Assembly: GCA_029251505.1 (NCBI GenBank)
Contig: JAQXDG010000009.1
Span: 1 to 60,883, forward strand
Length of the DNA stretch: 60,883 nt
Direction: 5' to 3'
Origin: Glaciecola sp.
GTDB lineage: Bacteria; Pseudomonadota; Gammaproteobacteria; Enterobacterales; Alteromonadaceae
In this document: piece after piece, positions 2,180 to 34,691 of the stretch
Layout of the letters: every line of letters begins with the position of its first letter
Position numbering within the stretch: the first letter of the stretch is position 1
The notes under the pieces: generated by a model
The model's database searches: none
What the model was told of the DNA's origin: nothing
Seen by the model: only the letters and a program-made list of their open reading frames with translations
Translations under genes and position numbers: made by a program

Positions 2180-4713
2180 GTAATCGTGTTGGCGGACACA
2201 TCCGTATAACCAATTTCTGAAAGGATAATGTTTACGCTAGCAGCGCTACTTAGACTGAACGCATTGGTAATAGCTGATAAATCTTCACCGGCCTGAGTAA
2301 AGCAGCTCGTCGCAACAGAGACTTGAGACCAAGTGTTTAGCTCGATTGCATTTAATGCAGAGCTAATATCAACATTGCTGGCACAGTTACTGTCGTTTTC
2401 ACAATTGATGCCCACATTGACTGCCCCGTTTGGTTTAGTCACTAGATTTACCCACATGCTGATTGCTTTGTCGGTTGCAACAGCGCTCAAGTCTACGGCT
2501 TTAGGCGCATTAAATAATACTGCACCGGTTCCAGTACCATTAAAGGTTAACTGAAAGCTGTCTTCTTGAACGTTGCGATCATATGTACGATAACTAATGC
2601 TAGGTAACGCTAGCGTATTAGACATTACCGCTGCGGCTTGACCATTAGACACTAATGCCAAATTCCAAGGATAAACAACTGAACGGTTATAGACCATGTT
2701 AGAAGCATTGGCTGAGGTATCGATGTTCAATTCATCCAATTGTGCTGCTAATACTTCTTCAGCGCCATAAGTTAAGCCAAAACCATATGGTAATAACGGC
2801 GCGTAATTTTCATCTCCACGGTTAACGACTTGGTCAGGACTTTTAGGCCAAGAATAAGATAATTTACCATGAAAATCATAATTTACACTGCCATCTGCTT
2901 TCGCCATAATGACATCGGCGACACCGACACCTTCTGAGCCAGGTAACCATGCAGCCACAAACGCATCAGAGGCGTTTAATTCTGGATTCACCCACATAGC
3001 ACGACCACTAATAAAGATCGATACCACAGGGATCCCTTGGTCTTTTAATGACTTTAACAATGCTAAATCAGTTTTGTTACCCGGTTGATATTCTACTGAT
3101 GGACGGTCACCCACACCTTCAGCGTAAGGCTCTTCACCAAATACGACTACTGCAACATCAGGTTTATTTCCTGCACTCGCATCAAAACTACCATCAACAC
3201 TCAATGTGACTTTACCGCCAGCGGCATTAACCGAGTCGGCAATACCAGCGTAAATAGAACTACCACCTGGGAAATCCGCATTGGTATTATTGGTACCTTG
3301 CCACGTGATAGTCCAGCCGCCAGATTGCTTGCCAATATTATCAGCAGCGTCACCAGCAACTAAAATGTTCGCTGTTGGATTTAATGGTAATATGTTGTTA
3401 TTTTTTAATAAAACCAGTGATTTACGCACTGCTTCACGCGCAACTGCACGATGATCTGGATGACCAATAAGCTCCATTTTACCCGAGTAAGCACGCTTTT
3501 CCGGGCTTGGGCGGTCAAAGATACCCGCACGCGCTTTGACTCTTAAAATTCGGGTTACTGCGTCATCAATTCGGCTCATAGGGATCGTGCCATTTTTGAC
3601 TTGGGCAACGGTATTGGCAAATAATGGACGCCATGATTGAGTCGGCGCCATGAATATATCTAATCCAGCATTAATCGCTTGAGGACAGCTTTCATTGGTA
3701 CAGCCGGCAACTTGTCCATGGCCATTCCAATCACCCACTACAAAACCATCAAAACCCATGCGGTTTTTTAGTACTTGATTCAGTAAGTACTCAGAACCGT
3801 GGATCTTGTCACCTTGCCAACGGTTAAACGAGGCCATGACTGACTGAGCGCCAGCTGTAAGGCCGCCAACATACCCTTGCGCATGGATGTTATATAAGTC
3901 TTCTTCTGAACTGATATTGTCGCCTTGGTCAACACCATCAAGCGTGCCACCATCACCGACAAAGTGTTTAACGGTGCTGAGTACTTTATCTTCAGCTAAA
4001 AAGTTTTCCCCAGCCGTGCCTTGTAAACCATGCACAATAGCGGTTGAGTAGGCTTTTACGATTTCTGGATCTTCTGAATAGCCTTCGTAAGTTCGTCCCC
4101 AACGGTCATTGCGAACGACAGCAACTGTGGGAGCAAAAATCCAATCAATACCCGTTGCAAGGACTTCTTTAGCAGTAGCTTGAGCAACACGTTCAATTAA
4201 ATCTGGATCGTTTGCTGCACCAAGACCAATGTTATGTGGAAATAACGTAGCCCCTACCACATTATTATGACCATGAACGGCATCTGTGCCCCAAATGGTG
4301 GGGATAGTAGAGCCATCTAATGAATCATCAATCGAGGCTTGATACATAGACTCAGCTAAATCAATCCAATCTTGAGGCGTTGCCTGTTTATTGTTATCTG
4401 GGTATGCCCCACCGCCATTTAAAAATGAACCAAAGCCGTATTGACGCATATCTTCTAGCGTAATATCTCTAATTTCGGGTTGGATCATTTGCCCGATTTT
4501 TTGTTCTAGCGTCATTGTGCTAAGCATTTTGGCAACTTGTGCTTCAATAGCTGCGTCTTTTTTGACTTCAATATCAAGCTGAGGCCAAATTGGATTTGCT
4601 ACGTTACTTACTGTTGTAACCGCTTCTTGCGCTGATTCATTAGCAGTACCGCAGGCTACTAAGTTCAATGCGATTAAGGTTCCTAAAAGTGCACGAGGCA
4701 TATTAATAAACAT
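2170..4713 (-). CDS. GH3 beta-glucosidase / exo-beta-glucanase lipoprotein
   Basis: Glycoside hydrolase family 3 exo-acting beta-glucosidase that releases glucose from beta-glucan oligomers, probably anchored in the envelope. A lipoprotein signal with lipobox LVAC (Cys21) is visible. The GH3 N-terminal barrel carries KHFVGDGGT (249-257) and the nucleophile Asp in GFVVGDWNG (D328); the GH3 C-terminal domain follows. The last roughly 170 residues form an extra beta-sandwich as in marine ExoP-type enzymes. The length of 847 aa fits that class. ATG at 4713 has AGGA nine bases upstream. It lies 18 bp after the MFS gene and overlaps the GH16 gene, so the three are one operon, with the LacI-type operator in front. 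Confidence 0.93.
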   Translation of the reverse strand: MFINMPRALLGTLIALNLVACGTANESAQEAVTTVSNVANPIWPQLDIEVKKDAAIEAQVAKMLSTMTLEQKIGQMIQPEIRDITLEDMRQYGFGSFLNGGGAYPDNNKQATPQDWIDLAESMYQASIDDSLDGSTIPTIWGTDAVHGHNNVVGATLFPHNIGLGAANDPDLIERVAQATAKEVLATGIDWIFAPTVAVVRNDRWGRTYEGYSEDPEIVKAYSTAIVHGLQGTAGENFLAEDKVLSTVKHFVGDGGTLDGVDQGDNISSEEDLYNIHAQGYVGGLTAGAQSVMASFNRWQGDKIHGSEYLLNQVLKNRMGFDGFVVGDWNGHGQVAGCTNESCPQAINAGLDIFMAPTQSWRPLFANTVAQVKNGTIPMSRIDDAVTRILRVKARAGIFDRPSPEKRAYSGKMELIGHPDHRAVAREAVRKSLVLLKNNNILPLNPTANILVAGDAADNIGKQSGGWTITWQGTNNTNADFPGGSSIYAGIADSVNAAGGKVTLSVDGSFDASAGNKPDVAVVVFGEEPYAEGVGDRPSVEYQPGNKTDLALLKSLKDQGIPVVSIFISGRAMWVNPELNASDAFVAAWLPGSEGVGVADVIMAKADGSVNYDFHGKLSYSWPKSPDQVVNRGDENYAPLLPYGFGLTYGAEEVLAAQLDELNIDTSANASNMVYNRSVVYPWNLALVSNGQAAAVMSNTLALPSISYRTYDRNVQEDSFQLTFNGTGTGAVLFNAPKAVDLSAVATDKAISMWVNLVTKPNGAVNVGINCENDSNCASNVDISSALNAIELNTWSQVSVATSCFTQAGEDLSAITNAFSLSSAASVNIILSEIGYTDVSANTITCQ

Positions 4714-4731: not shown

Positions 4732-5970
4732 TTAAATGTCGGTCTTAACTTTATGGCCAGATAAACCATAGAATGCGATGTAGATATAACAGATTGCCGG
4801 TAATAAGAATGAGAGCTGTACGCCAATGCCATCCGCTAATACACCTTGTAATAATGGTAATAATGCGCCACCTACGATAGCCAAACATAGTACACCAGAA
4901 CCTTGTGCGGCATGTTTACCTAAACCGGTTACTGCTAGAGAGAAAATAGTTGGGAACATAATAGAATTACATAAGCCGACAAGTAATATTGCCCACATTG
5001 CAAAATGCCCCGTTGTTGTTACCGCTAGTATAATGAGAACTACTGCCATAAAAGCGTTAAATGCTAATACTTTACCCGCAGCAACATACTGCATGACGTA
5101 TGCACCGACAAAACGACCCACCATTGCACCACCCCAGTATAAGGCGATTAATTTTGACGCTTCGGCTTCACCGATACCTGCTATTTCTGGCAAGCTAAAG
5201 AAATTGACTAAAAAACTACCAATAGCGACTTCTGCTCCCACATAGACGAAAATACCAACTGCACCTAATACTAGATGCGGGTATTTTAATACCGCAGCTA
5301 AATGACCTTGGCCATCTTCACTTGTATCTTGTATGTTTGGTAATTTTAAGTACGCAAATATCGCCGCTAAAATCACTAAGGCTAATGCCAACATCACATA
5401 AGGCAGTTGTACCGCCGAGGCATCGCCTGCAACAGGCTCATGCCCTCCTGCAAATAACAACGAAGCACCAAAAAATGGCGCGATAGTTGTACCAAAAGAG
5501 TTAAATGCTTGGGTCATGGTTAAGCGCGAAGAGGCTGTTTTGGGATCGCCTAGCGCACTCACATATGGATTGGCAGAAACCTGTAGGATAGTAATTCCAG
5601 AAGCTAGGATGAACAAGGCTGCTAAAAACAAGCCATAAATGCCGGCTGTTGCAGCGGGGTAAAACAAACCGCAACCAATAGCTGCAATGGTTAATCCTAA
5701 CACGATACCTTTTTGGTAACCGATCTTAGAAACTAAGCGACCTGCTGGCAGTGATACAATGAAATACGCTCCAAAAAAACAAAACTGGATCAACATTGCT
5801 TGGGTGAAATTTAAGTTAAATGCACCTTTAAGATAGGGGATAAGTATGTCATTTAAGCAGGTGATGAACCCCCACATAAAAAATAACGAAGTCAGTGCAT
5901 ATAGCGCAAACTTAAAGTTTCCTTGAGGTTGTTCCCCAGTATTTGATGATGTTGGTGTTGCAAAGGCCAC
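4732..5970 (-). CDS. FucP/GluP-type sugar MFS transporter
   Basis: Inner-membrane proton-coupled sugar importer of the FucP/glucose-galactose branch of the major facilitator superfamily; about 12 hydrophobic segments are visible. Family hallmarks include [19 protein letters not shown] in the first membrane helix and [15 protein letters not shown] in the middle of the protein. The frame is open to an ATG at 6012. I prefer GTG at 5970 because GGAG sits eight bases in front of it and the extra 14 residues (rich in Ile/Lys) are atypical; the product is then about 412 aa. First gene of the leftward operon with GH3 and GH16, which suggests uptake of glucose or a short beta-glucan product. Transcription starts next to the 6025-6042 palindrome. 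Confidence 0.9.
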
Positions 5971-6024
5971 AATAAATTCTCCAAAGGTGTTGATTTTTTT
6001 TATTATAAACATTAAATTAACATG

Positions 6025-6042
6025 AATGAAAGCGCTTTCATT
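6025..6042. promoter_or_regulatory. LacI-family operator palindrome
   Basis: AATGAAAGCGCTTTCATT is a perfect 18-bp palindrome with the central CG typical of LacI/GalR operators. It sits between the divergent MFS-GH3-GH16 and GH1-LacI-MFS units, 55 bp upstream of the MFS GTG start and 83 bp before the GH1 start. The natural ligand-binding partner is the LacI-type protein at 7483-8481. That pairing is inferred. Confidence 0.85.
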
Positions 6043-6125
6043 GTTTGTTTGATAACTTTTTTCATTTAATTAAACAACATTGTTAATTTTGTATTACACC
6101 GAACTATCGAATAATTGGTAACCCC

Positions 6126-7475
6126 ATGACAAAACTTACCCTACCTTACGACTCTAAAATGTTAGATGAGGAATTTATCTTCGGCGTCGCGACGTCTTCT
6201 TTTCAAATAGAAGGGGCGCGTGCTACTCGTTTGGATTCAATTTGGGATACGTTTTGCGCACAAGAAAATACCATCTCTGACCATACTCATGGCGACGTTG
6301 CTTGTGATCATATTAATCGTTGGCAAGAAGATGTGCAGTTGATTTGTGATCTTGGTGTCGACGCTTATCGTTTTTCGATTTCTTGGCCGCGCGTCATGCA
6401 TCAGGACGGTTCAGTCAATGAAGTTGGGTTTGCCTTTTATGAACATCTTGTCGATGCATTAAAAGCGCAAGGTAAAAAAGTGTTTGTTACCTTGTATCAT
6501 TGGGATTTACCTCAGTACCTTGAAGATGAGGGTGGGTGGTTAAATCGAAATACAGCTGTTGAATTTGCTAAGTATTGTGATGCCATTTCTGCTCGTTTAG
6601 GCTCTAAAGTAGATGCTTACACTACATTAAATGAGCCGTTTTGCGCAGGGTATTTAAGTTATGAGCTTGGCATTCATGCTCCAGGCTTGACCGGCAAAAA
6701 GAACGGTCGACAAGCGTCTCACCATTTGTTACTTGCTCATGGCTTGGCCATGCAAGTGCTCCGTAAAAACTGCCCTGATGCAGACTTAGGGATTGTGATT
6801 AATATCCATCCAGGTTATCCACAAACGGATTCTGCTGCAGATATTGAAGCCACTAAAATGGGGGGGGAATATCTTTTTTATTGGTATCTGGATCCCTTGT
6901 TAAAACAGTGCTATCCAAGTGTCATGGATAAATTAACGGATGCAGAAAAACCCGATATCCAGGATGGCGATATGGCTATTATTGGTCAGCCACTCGATTT
7001 TATTGGCATGAATTATTACACCCGTAACGTTTATACCATGGACGATAATGGCTGGTTCAGCATTGTGCCTCCACCAGCAGGTAATTTAACTGAGATGGGG
7101 TGGGAGATAGTGCCTGGTGCCATGACCGATATGCTAGTGTCATTAAATAATGAGTATCCCTTACCACCGATGTTTATCACTGAGAATGGTGCGGCGATGC
7201 CGGATAAGCTTGTTGGTAAGCAGGTGGATGATCAAGACCGGATTGATTACTTCCAGTCGCATTTTTTAGCGGTACACAATGCAATGGAACAAGGCGTCAA
7301 TATCAAAGGCTATTTTGCATGGAGTTTGTTAGATAACTTTGAATGGGCAGAAGGTTACAGTAAGCGTTTTGGGTTGATTTACATTGACTATGAAACACAA
7401 GAGCGAATATGGAAAGATAGCGCTATTGCTTATAAAAATATGCTAACATCACGTGCATTAGTCACGTCAGAATAA
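6126..7475 (+). CDS. GH1 beta-glucosidase
   Basis: Cytoplasmic glycoside hydrolase family 1 enzyme hydrolysing imported beta-glucosides (cellobiose or laminaribiose type) to glucose. No signal peptide is present. The GH1 acid/base motif TLNEP is at 167-171 (E170) and the nucleophile motif ITENG at 351-355 (E353). The length of 449 aa matches bacterial GH1 beta-glucosidases such as BglA/BglB. First gene of a rightward operon: the LacI regulator starts seven bases after its stop and the second sugar carrier overlaps LacI. The operator at 6025-6042 lies 83 bp upstream. Confidence 0.95.
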   Translation: MTKLTLPYDSKMLDEEFIFGVATSSFQIEGARATRLDSIWDTFCAQENTISDHTHGDVACDHINRWQEDVQLICDLGVDAYRFSISWPRVMHQDGSVNEVGFAFYEHLVDALKAQGKKVFVTLYHWDLPQYLEDEGGWLNRNTAVEFAKYCDAISARLGSKVDAYTTLNEPFCAGYLSYELGIHAPGLTGKKNGRQASHHLLLAHGLAMQVLRKNCPDADLGIVINIHPGYPQTDSAADIEATKMGGEYLFYWYLDPLLKQCYPSVMDKLTDAEKPDIQDGDMAIIGQPLDFIGMNYYTRNVYTMDDNGWFSIVPPPAGNLTEMGWEIVPGAMTDMLVSLNNEYPLPPMFITENGAAMPDKLVGKQVDDQDRIDYFQSHFLAVHNAMEQGVNIKGYFAWSLLDNFEWAEGYSKRFGLIYIDYETQERIWKDSAIAYKNMLTSRALVTSE

Positions 7476-7482
7476 GCGTAAT

Positions 7483-8481
7483 ATGGCCACAATATATCAA
7501 GTAGCAGATCTAGCCGGTGTTTCTCTAGCAACCGTTTCAAGAGTAATGAACGGTAATGTCAAGGTGAGTGATAAAAGCCGAGCTAAAGTTCAATCCGCTA
7601 TGAAAGAATTAGGCTACCAACCTAATATTATCGCGCAGTCTCTTGCGTCTAATCGGACTAATCGGGTTGGGGTCTTGGTATCTGAATTAAGTGGTCCGTT
7701 TTTTAGTTATATGTTAGCGGTCGTGGAAAGCGCTTTACGTGAAGAGGGTAAACACGCAATCATTACTGCGGGTCACTCAGATGTGGCTAAAGAACAAGAA
7801 GGCATTGAATTTTTATTTGGATGTCGCTGTGATGCTTTGATTTTGCACATTGATGCGGTATCCGATGAATATCTACTCAAATTAAAAGAACGTAAAGTGC
7901 CTTTTTCTCTGATCAACCATCGCATTGATGACATTGCTGATTGCTGTTTTACCGTTGATAATGAACAAGGTGGCTACCTAGCAGCAAAAGCAGTGATCGA
8001 CATGGGTCACACCAAGATTGCCTATATCTCAGGTCCAGAATTTAAAGAAGATGCCCGCATGCGTCTTGAAGGTCATAAGCGTGCATTAGAAGAAGCGGGT
8101 TTGACGTTTAATGAAGCACTCCATTATCGTGGTAACTACAACGAAGATGGAGGCAAAGCAGGATTTGATGAATTGTCAGAGCAACGTTTTAGTGCGTTGA
8201 TCTGTGCTAATGATGAAATGGCCACAGGCGCGATGTATTCGGCGCGCAAACACGGTTTGGATCTTCCTCATGATTTGTCAATTGTGGGCTACGATGACCA
8301 GGTGTTTGCTCGATATACTTATCCGACGTTAACCACAATTAAAAATCCGATTGCCGAAATGGGTAGCATGGCAGCCAAATGGGTCCTCAAAGAAGTGTAT
8401 AACATCAACACCGCTGAAATCATCCACAACACTTTCGAACCTAAACTTATCATTCGTAATTCAATAGAAGAGAATATTTAA
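7483..8481 (+). CDS. LacI/GalR-family transcriptional regulator of the beta-glucan locus
   Basis: Sugar-responsive repressor. The N-terminal LacI helix-turn-helix is plain (IYQVADLAGVSLATVSRVMN, residues 4-23), with a hinge to about residue 60. A periplasmic-binding-protein-like effector domain follows (PFFSYMLAVVE, then ICANDEMATGAM and SIVGYDDQ), a full 332-aa LacI protein. It is translationally close to GH1 (7-bp gap) and its stop overlaps the start of the next MFS gene. It most likely binds the 6025-6042 palindrome and is released by glucose or a disaccharide. A second, imperfect AAAGCGCTTT core lies inside its own coding region at 7725-7738. Confidence 0.93.
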   Translation: MATIYQVADLAGVSLATVSRVMNGNVKVSDKSRAKVQSAMKELGYQPNIIAQSLASNRTNRVGVLVSELSGPFFSYMLAVVESALREEGKHAIITAGHSDVAKEQEGIEFLFGCRCDALILHIDAVSDEYLLKLKERKVPFSLINHRIDDIADCCFTVDNEQGGYLAAKAVIDMGHTKIAYISGPEFKEDARMRLEGHKRALEEAGLTFNEALHYRGNYNEDGGKAGFDELSEQRFSALICANDEMATGAMYSARKHGLDLPHDLSIVGYDDQVFARYTYPTLTTIKNPIAEMGSMAAKWVLKEVYNINTAEIIHNTFEPKLIIRNSIEENI

Positions 8482-31480: not shown

Positions 31481-31731
31481 TGACTGAACAAACTATTCGT
31501 ACAGTACAGGGTCGTGTAGTAAGCAACAAGATGGATAAAACCATCACTGTTGCGGTAGAACGCAAAGTGAAGCATCCTATTTATGGGAAATTCATCAAAC
31601 GTACTACTAAACTTCACGCACACGATGAAGCTAACGTATGTAATGAAGGCGATTTTGTGTCTATCACAGAATGTCGTCCTCTTTCTAAATCCAAAAACTG
31701 GATGTTAGTTGACGTAATTACTAAAGCTTAA
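31480..31731 (+). CDS. rpsQ: 30S ribosomal protein S17
   Basis: Primary 16S rRNA-binding protein of 83 aa with the usual [20 protein letters not shown] start. Last gene of this operon: a strong terminator follows 26 bp later, and rplN, normally next, is absent. Confidence 0.99.
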
Positions 31732-31757
31732 TGTATTAAGTTTTAGATATTGCATTT

Positions 31758-31793
31758 AAAAGCCGCTAAGGAGCAATCTTTAGCGGCTTTTTT
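31758..31793 (+). terminator. Rho-independent terminator of the S10 operon
   Basis: AAAAGCCGCTAA (31758-31769) pairs perfectly with TTAGCGGCTTTT (31780-31791), followed by more T. This cleanly ends the S10 operon after rpsQ. Confidence 0.95.
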
Positions 31794-31829
31794 GTATGTG
31801 CATTTATCGTAGCGATAAGCACTTGGTAT

Positions 31830-32000
31830 ATGACCATTGAATTCGTCCTTGTTAGCGAGACAAACAAGACTGAAACGACAAACTTGCAAGTTGTAGCGAG
31901 GACTAATGATGTAGATGTGCAGAATGAATCTGTTATTGTTGTAAATGACCCAAATTTGTCAGCCTTGTCAGAGAAAACTGACCAATCAACTCCCTCTTAA
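31830..32000 (+). CDS. Possible small protein of unknown function (56 aa)
   Basis: A short open frame, ATG 31830 to TAA 31998-32000, encodes MTIEFVLVSETNKTETTNLQ and on to a Ser/Pro end; it is acidic and lacks any motif. No good ribosome binding site is visible. Its stop is two bases before the GTG of the next ORF. It may be a separate small gene, or the front half of one gene whose back half (32003-32335) lies in another frame after an indel. I do not recognise it. Confidence 0.3.
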   Translation: MTIEFVLVSETNKTETTNLQVVARTNDVDVQNESVIVVNDPNLSALSEKTDQSTPS

Positions 32001-32002
32001 AT

Positions 32003-32335
32003 GTGTCATCTGCCGCACTTGATTTTGAGTTAAATCAAGATTTGCAGCGATTGTCCCGATCTTATAATGAGTTATCAGCAACTAACGAGCAATTAAAAGC
32101 ACGAATTACCAGCTATAAACAACTCCTAAATGAACACGAGATAGCGTTTAGCGTATCTCAACCGACAGAGTTAGATCTTGACGTGGTTAATGATCATTTA
32201 CCCGATAATTCTCTATTTCAGTTACTGACACATGATCTCTTAGTTCAACCCTGGCTTATGGCTACAAACACACAATCTAATTCAGGCGATGCGGAAGGTG
32301 ATGACATGAAATTTTACACTTTGATGACGTTTTAA
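32003..32335 (+). CDS. Hypothetical protein with a coiled-coil segment (110 aa)
   Basis: Unrecognised 110-aa protein. Residues about 8-45 (from FELNQDLQRL) look like an amphipathic coiled coil; the rest is acidic without a motif. The start GTG at 32003 has no convincing ribosome binding site, and the frame stays open only to a TGA at 31979. It stands alone between the S10 terminator and a repeat-like stretch, so it may be a gene remnant. Confidence 0.4.
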   Translation: MSSAALDFELNQDLQRLSRSYNELSATNEQLKARITSYKQLLNEHEIAFSVSQPTELDLDVVNDHLPDNSLFQLLTHDLLVQPWLMATNTQSNSGDAEGDDMKFYTLMTF

Positions 32336-32431: not shown

Positions 32432-32890
32432 TTAGATAGTATATTCTTCACCATTCGGTGCGGTAAACTCACGACAGGTAGGAAACTCGATTTGTACATC
32501 TTGGATCCCTGCATTCTGCTCGCAACCGCGATTACCTTTACGGTCAAATTTGATTTCAACGTGCAAATCATTTTCTCTTAAAACGATTGAATCTGGAGAT
32601 TCAATGTGACCGCAAAGTGCAACAAACTGCTTTGGTTGTGATAGACCACAATGGGTGCCATCTGCAAAATACGCCATGATATGACGGAAATAGACCACGT
32701 ACTCTTTCACTTCTGCATGTGAACCATGATCAAGAGGGAAGCGTTCATCAAGCATTTTCATAACAGCTTCTGAGTTATCCATGACTTGAAAAGCACTCTG
32801 CCATCTGATGTTGGCTACAGTAGAAAATTGACCCATTAATGCATGTTGATTTGATTGTGCTTGGTGTAAGTTCATTGCTGGCATATTCAT
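32432..32890 (-). CDS. Stand-alone malate synthase G-like domain protein
   Basis: About 152 aa, starting at ATG 32890, which has AGGAGG six bases upstream (a longer frame to 32917 lacks one). From about residue 35 it reads like the segment of malate synthase G in front of the catalytic barrel: IRW, LDERFPLDHGSHAEVKEYVV, ADGTHCGL, PKQFVALCG, then SIVLRENDLHVEIKFDRKG and an AGIQDVQIE end. The matching malate synthase G pattern is ARW, GSHAD, GL-P-QFVGY-G, GLHIEIQID and AGVKDLLLE. The TIM barrel with the catalytic Arg, Glu and Asp residues is missing, so it cannot be an active synthase. It is divergent from a DUF3612 regulator of the type linked to glyoxylate-shunt genes. The match is from memory of the family, not from a search. 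Confidence 0.6.
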   Translation of the reverse strand: MNMPAMNLHQAQSNQHALMGQFSTVANIRWQSAFQVMDNSEAVMKMLDERFPLDHGSHAEVKEYVVYFRHIMAYFADGTHCGLSQPKQFVALCGHIESPDSIVLRENDLHVEIKFDRKGNRGCEQNAGIQDVQIEFPTCREFTAPNGEEYTI

Positions 32891-33049
32891 AATGTTCCTC
32901 CTAGATGGGGTTAGCATCTGTATGTCATGTGTATCAGTTTACCGTATGTGTCACTGAATAAAGGTTGCGTGAGATAAAGTTTAAAAGATATCTTTACCGC
33001 GCTTGATTAGAATAATAGAATAAAAATCTGAATAATTTCACAATAAAAA

Positions 33050-33084
33050 TTACACAATGTAAATTTTACAAAAAACATGTGTAA
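33050..33084. promoter_or_regulatory. Inverted repeats before the DUF3612 regulator (candidate operator)
   Basis: TTACACA (33050-33056) and TGTGTAA (33078-33084) form a 7-bp inverted repeat. A near-palindrome TGTAAATTTTACA (33058-33070) lies inside it. It lies 41 bp before the regulator start, in the space between the divergent genes. Autoregulation by the HTH protein is a guess. Confidence 0.4.
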
Positions 33085-33125
33085 TAAGAGTTAACTGTTT
33101 CCACCCTAAATTAATGAGAATTCAT

Positions 33126-34691
33126 ATGAAATCAGTCTTGGCAAAAGGTAGTGGTAGTTTAGGTAGAAAAACCCATTTACTTGGTACTAAGGTACGGAAT
33201 TTACGTAAACGTAATAACCTGACATTGGATGATTTGTCTTCTCGATGTATTCGCTTAAATGCAGAGTATGCCCCGTCAGTATCCTATTTATCGATGATTG
33301 AACGCGGTAAACGTGTGCCTAGTTTGGATATGTTAGAAGTCATTGCGCAGGTGTTTCAAAAAGACGCGAATTGGTTTTTGGATGACGTGCCCGAGCAAGA
33401 TGATATCGTGATTGATAAAGGTAATCATGGTGGGATCTCTGGAATGCCACTGGAACCGAGCTTTTTATTTAGCAATGATATTTTACAAATCGCGATCCCT
33501 GAAATGCTTTCTCAAACAGGGATTAGTGGTCGGCAATTTGCCCATTTGTTAATTCGTGCACACCAAGAACATCATCAAAACCATTTCCCTGATTTAGAAA
33601 AAGCCGCAGAGGAAATTGGACAAAAGCGCATGCCATTAGCCCCTGATGAACTCATGATGTTAGCGCGTCAACAAGGCTTAACGATTAAGTGGTTTTCGCG
33701 TTTACCGCGAGGCTTTGCCGCTGAATATGGGGTTCATACGACGTCAGTGGTAACGTCCTATTTAGGTGCCGATAATACGTTATATCTAAATAAAATCTTA
33801 GAAAAATACGAAAAACGCTTAAAATACGATATTGCTGTGCATATTGGTCATAGTGTGTTGCATAACAACGATGGACTGAAAAGTGTGTTGGTGACAGGGT
33901 TAAACCAATATTCAGTGATGCAAGGCGGGAATAACCAAAAACTGCAATCTTCGCAAATCAATACCCAAGATATTTTGCAAGCGTGGCGTGATTTTGAGGC
34001 GAGTTTTTTTGCGGGTGCGTTGTTGTGTCCTAAGGTGCCATTTCGACAGCTATTGGATCGCAATGGCTATGAGATAGCCACCCATGAGCAGGTTGGTGTC
34101 TCTGCGTCAGTCGCGATGCGCCGCATGACAGCGGTGTCACCGTATAAACATTGGCATTATTTTGATGCTTATGCACCGGGCAAGCTCAAGGCTGTATATC
34201 GAGGCAATGGTATTCCGTTACCTTGGGGCAATATGCGAGAAGTGGCGGATCCGTGTCAGCACTGGGCGGTCTTTCGGATGATCAATACGCCGGTTAAAGG
34301 CACGTCGGCTCAATTATCAATTCTGAATGTCGGTAATGAACCGCGGATTTATTGTTGTGAATCCACTAATGTGGTTGATTTAGCCAAAAATAAACATGTT
34401 CTGTGTTCAGGGATTGATCTTAATCCTGCGATTAACGCCCAAGGTGGCGATGCGCAAGCCATAGCCCATGAGATTAAAAACTTATGTGTTAAAGGTGGCG
34501 GTTCAGCGCAGTTGCCCGTTGCAATGCAAAAGAAATTACAAACGGTCGCGCGTATATTGAATATCAATTGGGTCGAACGCGGCGTGTTAACGGATCCGCG
34601 CTTGATTTGCTCTCGTGGTACCGAATGCCCACGTGAACCGAGTTGTTATGCTGACGATGAAAATGTGATTAGTAGTACGTATATTGCGTAA
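33126..34691 (+). CDS. XRE-family regulator with DUF3612 / ScfR-like C-terminal part
   Basis: Transcriptional regulator of about 521 aa. The N-terminus holds a Cro/C1-type helix-turn-helix (KVRNLRKRNNLTLDDLSSRC, then YLSMIERGKRVPSLDMLEVI). A long ligand-sensing region follows, ending in a cysteine cluster (LICSRGTECPREPSCYADDE) like that of short-chain acyl-CoA-responsive ScfR/PrpR/RamB regulators. I recall DUF3612 proteins beside malate synthase or isocitrate lyase genes in Vibrio, so control of acetate/glyoxylate metabolism is likely. ATG at 33126 is used; ATG 33114 is possible. It diverges from the malate-synthase-like gene. Confidence 0.8.
   Translation: MKSVLAKGSGSLGRKTHLLGTKVRNLRKRNNLTLDDLSSRCIRLNAEYAPSVSYLSMIERGKRVPSLDMLEVIAQVFQKDANWFLDDVPEQDDIVIDKGNHGGISGMPLEPSFLFSNDILQIAIPEMLSQTGISGRQFAHLLIRAHQEHHQNHFPDLEKAAEEIGQKRMPLAPDELMMLARQQGLTIKWFSRLPRGFAAEYGVHTTSVVTSYLGADNTLYLNKILEKYEKRLKYDIAVHIGHSVLHNNDGLKSVLVTGLNQYSVMQGGNNQKLQSSQINTQDILQAWRDFEASFFAGALLCPKVPFRQLLDRNGYEIATHEQVGVSASVAMRRMTAVSPYKHWHYFDAYAPGKLKAVYRGNGIPLPWGNMREVADPCQHWAVFRMINTPVKGTSAQLSILNVGNEPRIYCCESTNVVDLAKNKHVLCSGIDLNPAINAQGGDAQAIAHEIKNLCVKGGGSAQLPVAMQKKLQTVARILNINWVERGVLTDPRLICSRGTECPREPSCYADDENVISSTYIA

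Follow-up and report, generated by a model that had tools for sequence, protein, structure and literature searches.

A free-standing alpha/beta domain of malate synthase G encoded divergently from a DUF3612 regulator in Glaciecola and other genera

Trigger enzymes and pseudoenzyme co-regulators are enzyme-derived proteins tied to transcription regulators. The locus described here likewise ties an enzyme-derived protein to a regulator, with the difference that an accessory domain alone is left of the enzyme, and that it is the single recognisable target of the regulator besides the regulator itself. Among regulators, the closest described systems are those of RamB class 2 and ScfR, which, in the available portion of the paper that treats them (PMC10370305), adjoin malate synthase and isocitrate lyase genes in glyoxylate-cycle operons, and whose binding motif consists of two near-identical boxes with an 18-bp spacer. 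DUF3612 regulators are likewise found, in a part of the genomes, beside malate synthase and isocitrate lyase genes, and have repeated near-identical boxes. However, set against that portion, its C-terminal part differs, its boxes are three in number with a 14-bp period, and its target here is usually one non-catalytic domain.

The window, that is, the whole stretch of DNA analysed, spans 60,883 nucleotides of a Glaciecola sp. contig (JAQXDG010000009.1). The gene for the stand-alone alpha/beta domain of malate synthase G (MSG) lies at 32432..32890 on the minus strand, with 152 codons and the stop included in the range. Its frame is open from the ATG at 32890 to the stop at 32432, with no internal stop, and a ribosome binding site AGGAGG stands on the same strand at 32902-32897, 6 nucleotides before the ATG. 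The initial annotation had read from these letters an intact frame with a strong ribosome site, a relationship to MSG, the loss of the catalytic barrel, and a real gene instead of a decaying one: the results below agree with it on these points. Its description of the protein as the MSG region that precedes the TIM barrel is right about MSG and wrong about a simple pre-barrel position, since the domain is discontinuous and includes a hairpin from beyond a barrel segment. The first alpha/beta segment, with the RWxS stretch, covers codons 27-135 (32486..32812, minus strand), as given by the alignment with full MSGs and by a structural match that starts at residue 27. The second is the C-terminal hairpin EFTAPNGEEYTI, codons 139-152 (32435..32476, minus strand), supported by the alignment, the AlphaFold model and the structural match. 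In the alignment, the stand-alone protein retains both pieces, which a barrel segment parts in the enzyme; neither the alignment with full MSGs nor the structural match places any barrel in the 152 amino acids.

The Pfam model MSG_insertion (PF20658) matches the protein with an E-value of 4.4e-13 (49.7 bits, for a cut-off of 24.8), and a sequence search aligns residues 43-136 with residues 170-263 of E. coli MSG (E 4.4e-11). An AlphaFold model built from 52 related sequences has a mean pLDDT of 79.7, with residues 1-28 below 50 and most of the domain above 90. Its residues 27-152 match MSG 132-329, and E. coli MSG (1p7t) is found with Z 20.9 over 126 residues. Among the matches listed, solved MSG structures have Z 19.6-20.9 and rmsd 1.1-1.8 over 122-133 aligned residues, and the stretch of the MSG chain covered runs from ~132 to ~330. 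The hairpin pattern F/Y-T-A-x-x-G-x-x-Y, searched as a regular expression, matches 76 of the 78 stand-alone proteins. Of the other two, L039 shows a near variant and L038 is without the hairpin; the end of L142, which lies outside the count of 78, is without it as well.

Judged by profiles, alignments and the predicted fold, the protein is the alpha/beta domain of MSG without its catalytic barrel, and not an enzyme. It has the sequence family and the fold of the insertion domain PF20658, and it differs from the MSG enzyme in being free-standing, with the barrel, the N-terminal clasp, the C-terminal plug and the catalytic motifs missing. It is the same kind of short protein as NCBIfam NF006511 (PRK08951), a model of 190 positions that aligns over residues 1-138 with E 9.1e-46 and 156.2 bits, below the curated cut-off of 173. 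The name of that family, 'malate synthase', implies an enzyme, whereas the domain protein is none. A comparison of 49 rows linked to DUF3612 with 19 unlinked rows, 5 divergent rows being omitted, separates the domain protein from unlinked MSGs by seven residues, F51, V65, H70, A73, F75, G82 and A91: these are conserved in linked domains, mostly kept also inside full linked enzymes, and rare in unlinked MSGs. Residues H58, H110 and E112 are among those conserved in both forms.

The divergent neighbour is a DUF3612 protein (Pfam, E 2.4e-100), encoded at 33126..34691 on the plus strand; the start at 33126 is the probable one when relatives are compared, and the first ATG of the frame is at 33114. 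The N-terminus holds an XRE-type helix-turn-helix (HTH_3, E 3.8e-08, 33.7 bits for a cut-off of 23), and the middle part has a weak match to Peptidase_M78 (IrrE-like, DUF955), at 15.4 bits, below the cut-off of 22. Of the initial label, a divergent 'DUF3612/ScfR-like regulator', the family, the orientation and the helix-turn-helix stand; the ScfR likeness does not extend to the C-terminal domain, for which no Pfam match appears up to E 1. The RamB equivalog model covers residues 23-91 only, with 15.6 of 700 bits. As to the Fe-S cluster and the binding of CoA esters that belong to this group of regulators, the conserved cysteines C495, C501 and C507 have a spacing unlike the C-X2-C-X4-C motif of PrpR, as given in the accessible part of PMC6765138. 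The structure model of the regulator is poor (mean pLDDT 53.1), and no mention of DUF3612 was found in the open-access literature. Identifying the pair with the Shewanella regulon SO0072 would be wrong: in the extracts of PMC3223726, SO0072 is listed as an ABC efflux regulon, and the regulators named for aceBA are LiuR, TyrR, HexR, PdhR and PsrA.

The distribution of the pair was followed in 100 DUF3612 loci: 17 from relatives, the best 80 of 521, which are biased towards close relatives, and 3 from a class-wide sample; at least 4 of the 80 come from genomes already counted among the 17. In these 100 loci, best 80 of 521 included, a domain-bearing protein is immediately divergent from DUF3612 in 98, so that the pair, whose conservation the initial annotation had left to be checked, is indeed conserved in Glaciecola, Shewanella, Vibrio and others. 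With the same inclusion of the best 80 of 521, the divergent gene is a stand-alone domain in 79 loci, an intermediate of 247-340 amino acids in 6, and a full MSG in 12, of which 11 have aceA next; the remaining loci are L115 with a broken MSG, L139 with aceA-glcB and L141 with aceB-aceA. The divergent cluster contains aceA in 15 of these loci, among them L141, L139 and L142, where it follows a stand-alone domain. The best 80 of 521 span Glaciecola, Opacimonas, Shewanella, Vibrio, Marinomonas, Neiella, Psychrosphaera and others, and have the domain protein immediately divergent in 80 of 80.

Among 60 relatives, DUF3612 is present in 17 and the divergent domain is adjacent in each of the 17: it is a short protein in 13, a 334-aa form in one (G011) and part of a full MSG followed by aceA in 3. 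The 43 relatives without DUF3612 have no stand-alone copy. Within the genus of the window, G003, G007 and G009 are without the regulator and also without the domain gene. In the class-wide sample of 232 genomes, less biased than the best 80 of 521, DUF3612 is present in 4 genomes, and 3 of these, with no others, carry a stand-alone domain that is uninterrupted. At the DUF3612 locus itself it is found in 2 of the 4: G000 has the stand-alone domain, and G262 (L142) the stand-alone domain and then aceA. In G192, the divergent genes are aceA and an ordinary glcB (L139), with a separate stand-alone copy elsewhere (L140). In G073 (L141), they are aceB-aceA, and no such domain was found in the genome.

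Second, unlinked stand-alone copies lie at L049:5795-6247, L048:8002-8574 and L140:6048-6614, each with its own copy of the repeat element described below; the one in L049 adjoins a gene that, on inspection by eye, resembles the LysR type, and the one in L048 is just behind a full glcB. The bypass locus of the window genome (L047:4195-9208) consists of aceA, a LysR-type regulator and glcB, and these genes stand together, in varying orientation, in G011 (L050), G014 (L136), G040 (L132) and G055 (L048). In Marinomonas phaeophyticola (L115, ~5690-7905), the linked MSG is split into two overlapping frames of 325 and 435 amino acids, by a recent break or an assembly error. An MSG-like stretch of G143 (L143:4134-4596) has several stop codons and is apparently a decaying gene. 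As to viral relatives, two stretches matched the pattern, and neither is a relative by tblastn.

The gap between the domain gene and the regulator holds a 40-bp block, AATTTCACAAtaaAAATTttACAnTGTgAATTTTACAAAa, at 33034..33073 (no strand assigned). It consists of three AATTTYACA-type repeats with a 14-bp period, and we infer from co-occurrence that DUF3612 binds it: it is thus a predicted operator. A promoter-like site directed towards the domain gene (33012..33041, minus strand, 9 of 12 matches) overlaps it, and is weak, the region having 10 such sites for 8.8 expected. The element agrees with the seed at 30 or more of its 40 positions in 98 of the 100 loci (best 80 of 521 included), while shuffled gaps, with a seed differing at two positions, reach at most 26; below 30 are L141, with 29, and L142, with 20 in a cut stretch whose site was later found by whole-genome search. 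In 20 whole genomes searched with at most 3 mismatches, 20 sites occur in 17 genomes, 17 of them in the gap beside DUF3612 and 3 beside the unlinked second copies of G011, G055 and G192. That search found none in G003 and G010, both without DUF3612, nor in G073, and a reversed pattern under the same settings gave 0 sites. The 42 distinct sites from which a matrix was built score 32-63, and the three second-copy sites, outside the matrix, 46-51. That the bypass genes elsewhere are under the same element was considered and rejected: at the aceA, glcB and aceB loci of 8 reduced-form genomes (L047, L050, L131-L136, L138), the best score is -11 or lower.

In 4 of the 9 genomes from the genus (G000, G001, G004 and G005), a two-repeat half-site with 2-3 mismatches precedes aceA by about 340 bp, at L047 ~3845-3868 and in the matching stretches of L144, L147 and L148; it was not found there in G002, G003, G006, G008 and G009. 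It may mean that the regulator has further targets with weaker sites, and is too weak to count, since the reversed control likewise yields two-repeat matches when 2 mismatches are allowed.

We now turn to the origin of the gene. A complete glcB in this position in other genomes, which the initial annotation took as the mark of a truncation, is observed in 12 of the 100 loci (best 80 of 521 included): it establishes descent from the enzyme, yet not decay, given the dN/dS values, the absence of internal stops and the complete fold. Strict expressions for 8 catalytic or conserved MSG motifs find 6-8 of them in each of the 12 full linked MSGs and 0 in each of the 6 intermediates; dead intermediates of 247-340 amino acids are found in Glaciecola. 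By comparison of the loci, descent of the domain gene from a linked MSG is clear, and gene order in other genomes shows an MSG of the source type forming, with aceA, an operon divergent from DUF3612.

The number of reductions was probably more than one, as far as trees can tell. In the regulator tree (63 rows, with Vibrio and Shewanella thinned and 4 repeats omitted), the clade of the window groups with the Glaciecola intermediates and the full-MSG Alteromonadaceae M269 (SH-aLRT 99); Vibrio and most Shewanella fall elsewhere, and the minimum number of changes between full and reduced forms is 3. The AU test on this tree, with 5 long-branch rows omitted (L141, L139, L142, L038, L040), rejects a single clade of all reduced forms (45 vs 13 rows, p-AU 0.00026) and, less strongly, a single stand-alone clade (39 vs 19 rows, p 0.026). 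A single origin is thus rejected on the regulator tree; the domain tree does not reject it. The latter unites the linked domains (52 rows), whether stand-alone or part of full enzymes, and a long branch sets them apart from unlinked MSGs (99). Its version for AU tests, with 68 rows, 96-102 short columns and 5 long rows omitted, has all 36 reduced rows on one side of a branch with support 81, not starred, and rejects neither 'stand-alone plus second copies' as one clade (p-AU 0.56) nor a Glaciecola clade that includes the window (p-AU 0.46). The domain of the window is placed close to G011's second copy (91) and not among the Glaciecola intermediates, and the second copy of G192 groups with G192's own MSG (83, long branch), which would make it a separate origin. 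The regulator tree could alternatively reflect an exchange of genes at this locus, or the takeover of the site by a second copy of the kind found in G011 (L049). Alignment A4 is without L062, L104 and L122; a stop falls within the L062 range.

Substitution patterns indicate that the remnant domain gene is under strong purifying selection. Of 13 pairs compared, 12 gave a finite dN/dS, between 0.02 and 0.17, one of these pairs consisting of two intermediates. The values are rough, dS being near or above 1 in many pairs; the regulator has lower values, 0.00-0.05. None of the 78 stand-alone copies has an internal stop, and a simple pseudogene is therefore unlikely. Codon adaptation of the domain gene exceeds that of the regulator in 10 of 10 genomes (the window and 9 others, one with a 334-aa form). 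In the window, it exceeds all 44 open reading frames listed, a set that counts the same gene once more with its longer start, and it ranks first among the non-ribosomal frames examined; in G026 and G014 it is unremarkable. Some comparison sets in other genomes include ribosomal genes, and the reference of G049 contains 1 ribosomal gene. High expression, as predicted from codon use, is thus clear in the window and mixed elsewhere.

In V. vulnificus, the qPCR primers for 'glcB' VV2_1647 encode LGCHKG and LETRTT, as Vibrio stand-alone proteins do, which identifies VV2_1647 as the domain gene in the portion of PMC10014275 available; there, it rises in stationary phase, as aceA and aceB do, and a mutant is said to have a lower level of its protein. 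A marine polysaccharide expression set includes, at about 0.5%, a 'malate synthase-related protein' that is, by its name in the excerpt of PMC7546218, likely the product of the domain gene.

What might such a protein do? Our best reading, tentative and below an even chance, is that it modulates the glyoxylate bypass at the protein level, as a dedicated factor under DUF3612 control; the non-catalytic role in sensing or tuning the bypass that the initial annotation suggested likewise stays a proposal. In the older arrangement, DUF3612 would have stood divergent from bypass genes, as the RamB class 2 regulators do in the accessible text of PMC10370305. It would bind the 40-bp element in the gap and, by analogy with RamB and PrpR, may respond to a C2 or acyl-CoA signal. 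In most genomes covered, the bypass enzymes are now elsewhere, and the only recognisable target would be the domain gene, probably with the regulator itself. The domain protein would then be the output of the regulation, since a regulator kept for one gene needs the product of that gene. It could act on C2 metabolism at the protein level by binding a bypass enzyme, with malate synthase, through the former barrel contact, as the partner of first choice, or else isocitrate lyase, and binding would tune the flux at the isocitrate/glyoxylate branch. In favour of this effector are the single kind of target, adjacency, aceA in the cluster, the element sites, the dN/dS values, the complete fold and, as far as the excerpted source goes, the rise of VV2_1647 with aceA and aceB and the report of its protein level, together with a codon adaptation above that of the regulator. 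Against it count G073, a genome in which a distant DUF3612 adjoins aceB-aceA and the domain was not found, the aceA half-site in 4 of 9 genus genomes, and the unremarkable codon use in G026 and G014. Malate synthases also vary in stand-alone genomes, with only malate synthase A (MSA) in G025 and G049 and only MSG in the window genome, and isocitrate lyase kinds differ: no enzyme partner is always present, which favours the regulator as the partner. A trans-acting spare part for MSA only, an enzyme without the domain, is not a general answer: among the 14 relatives that carry a reduced form, MSA is present in 4, and the other 10 have, outside the locus, MSG only.

The chief rival of the effector is a protein that binds DUF3612 and alters its DNA binding, as co-sensor or feedback inhibitor, as the full linked MSG would also do. 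We consider it doubtful, if worth keeping in view. DUF3612 is the one partner in every stand-alone genome of both samples (60 relatives, 232 class-wide), and the seven linked-domain residues, rare in unlinked MSGs, are shared even inside full enzymes; domain and regulator are jointly missing in G003, G007 and G009, a loss that shared control would explain by itself as well. However, such a pair would control itself without output, no second kind of target with the triple-repeat pattern appearing in 20 genomes, and G073 does without the domain. Another proposal, quite improbable in our estimate, is a buffer or sensor that needs no protein partner and has a C2 or CoA metabolite, or a metal, as its ligand: the source enzyme belongs to C2 metabolism, and linked and unlinked forms alike conserve residues such as H58, H110 and E112, but MSG substrates bind within the barrel, which is missing here. 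There is finally the possibility that the gene is what is left of a glcB-aceA operon and is slowly fading, retained by chance or for the promoter DNA of the regulator, as relatives with a full MSG at the same site and the dead Glaciecola intermediates would suggest. It appears very unlikely in view of the low dN/dS, the complete fold, the lack of internal stops in the 78 copies, second copies that have their own element, and V. vulnificus expression as the portion of PMC10014275 reports it. Taken as a whole, a regulon cut down, probably several times in parallel, to a regulator and one non-catalytic domain that controls bypass flux, by binding either a bypass enzyme or its own regulator, is a conjecture that comes near an even chance and stays short of it.

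The domain (PF20658) and the short family (NF006511) are already catalogued, and the protein itself is not new. In the open-access literature, as far as its available text extends, no description was found of the fixed pair, the 40-bp element, the reduction or the single-target regulon, nor of a role for the alpha/beta domain within MSG; the same text yields no function for the domain alone, in line with the earlier remark that none was described. The locus, whose small, conserved protein is found in many marine bacteria, suggests that a metabolic operon can be pared to a single non-enzymatic part and that this part is still needed. It gives DUF3612 regulators a likely function and a predicted 40-bp operator, and the natural excision of the accessory domain, kept under what seems to be a dedicated regulator, would allow its role to be tested apart from the enzyme. 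Short Vibrio and Shewanella proteins named 'malate synthase' by one family model, or 'glcB' in one paper, are not enzymes. If the modulator reading is true, the alpha/beta domain of MSG is itself a regulatory protein module.

On the side of the locus away from the regulator, the S10-operon run of ribosomal genes stops after rpsQ (window 31731-32003), with a terminator-like hairpin at 31758-31791, and the domain locus follows. A reading frame of 110 amino acids with a GTG start, at 32003-32335, has a best neighbour match of E 1.0, which is not convincing. On that same side of the domain gene, G001 (L031) and G004 (L033) have two open reading frames of about 690-830 amino acids.
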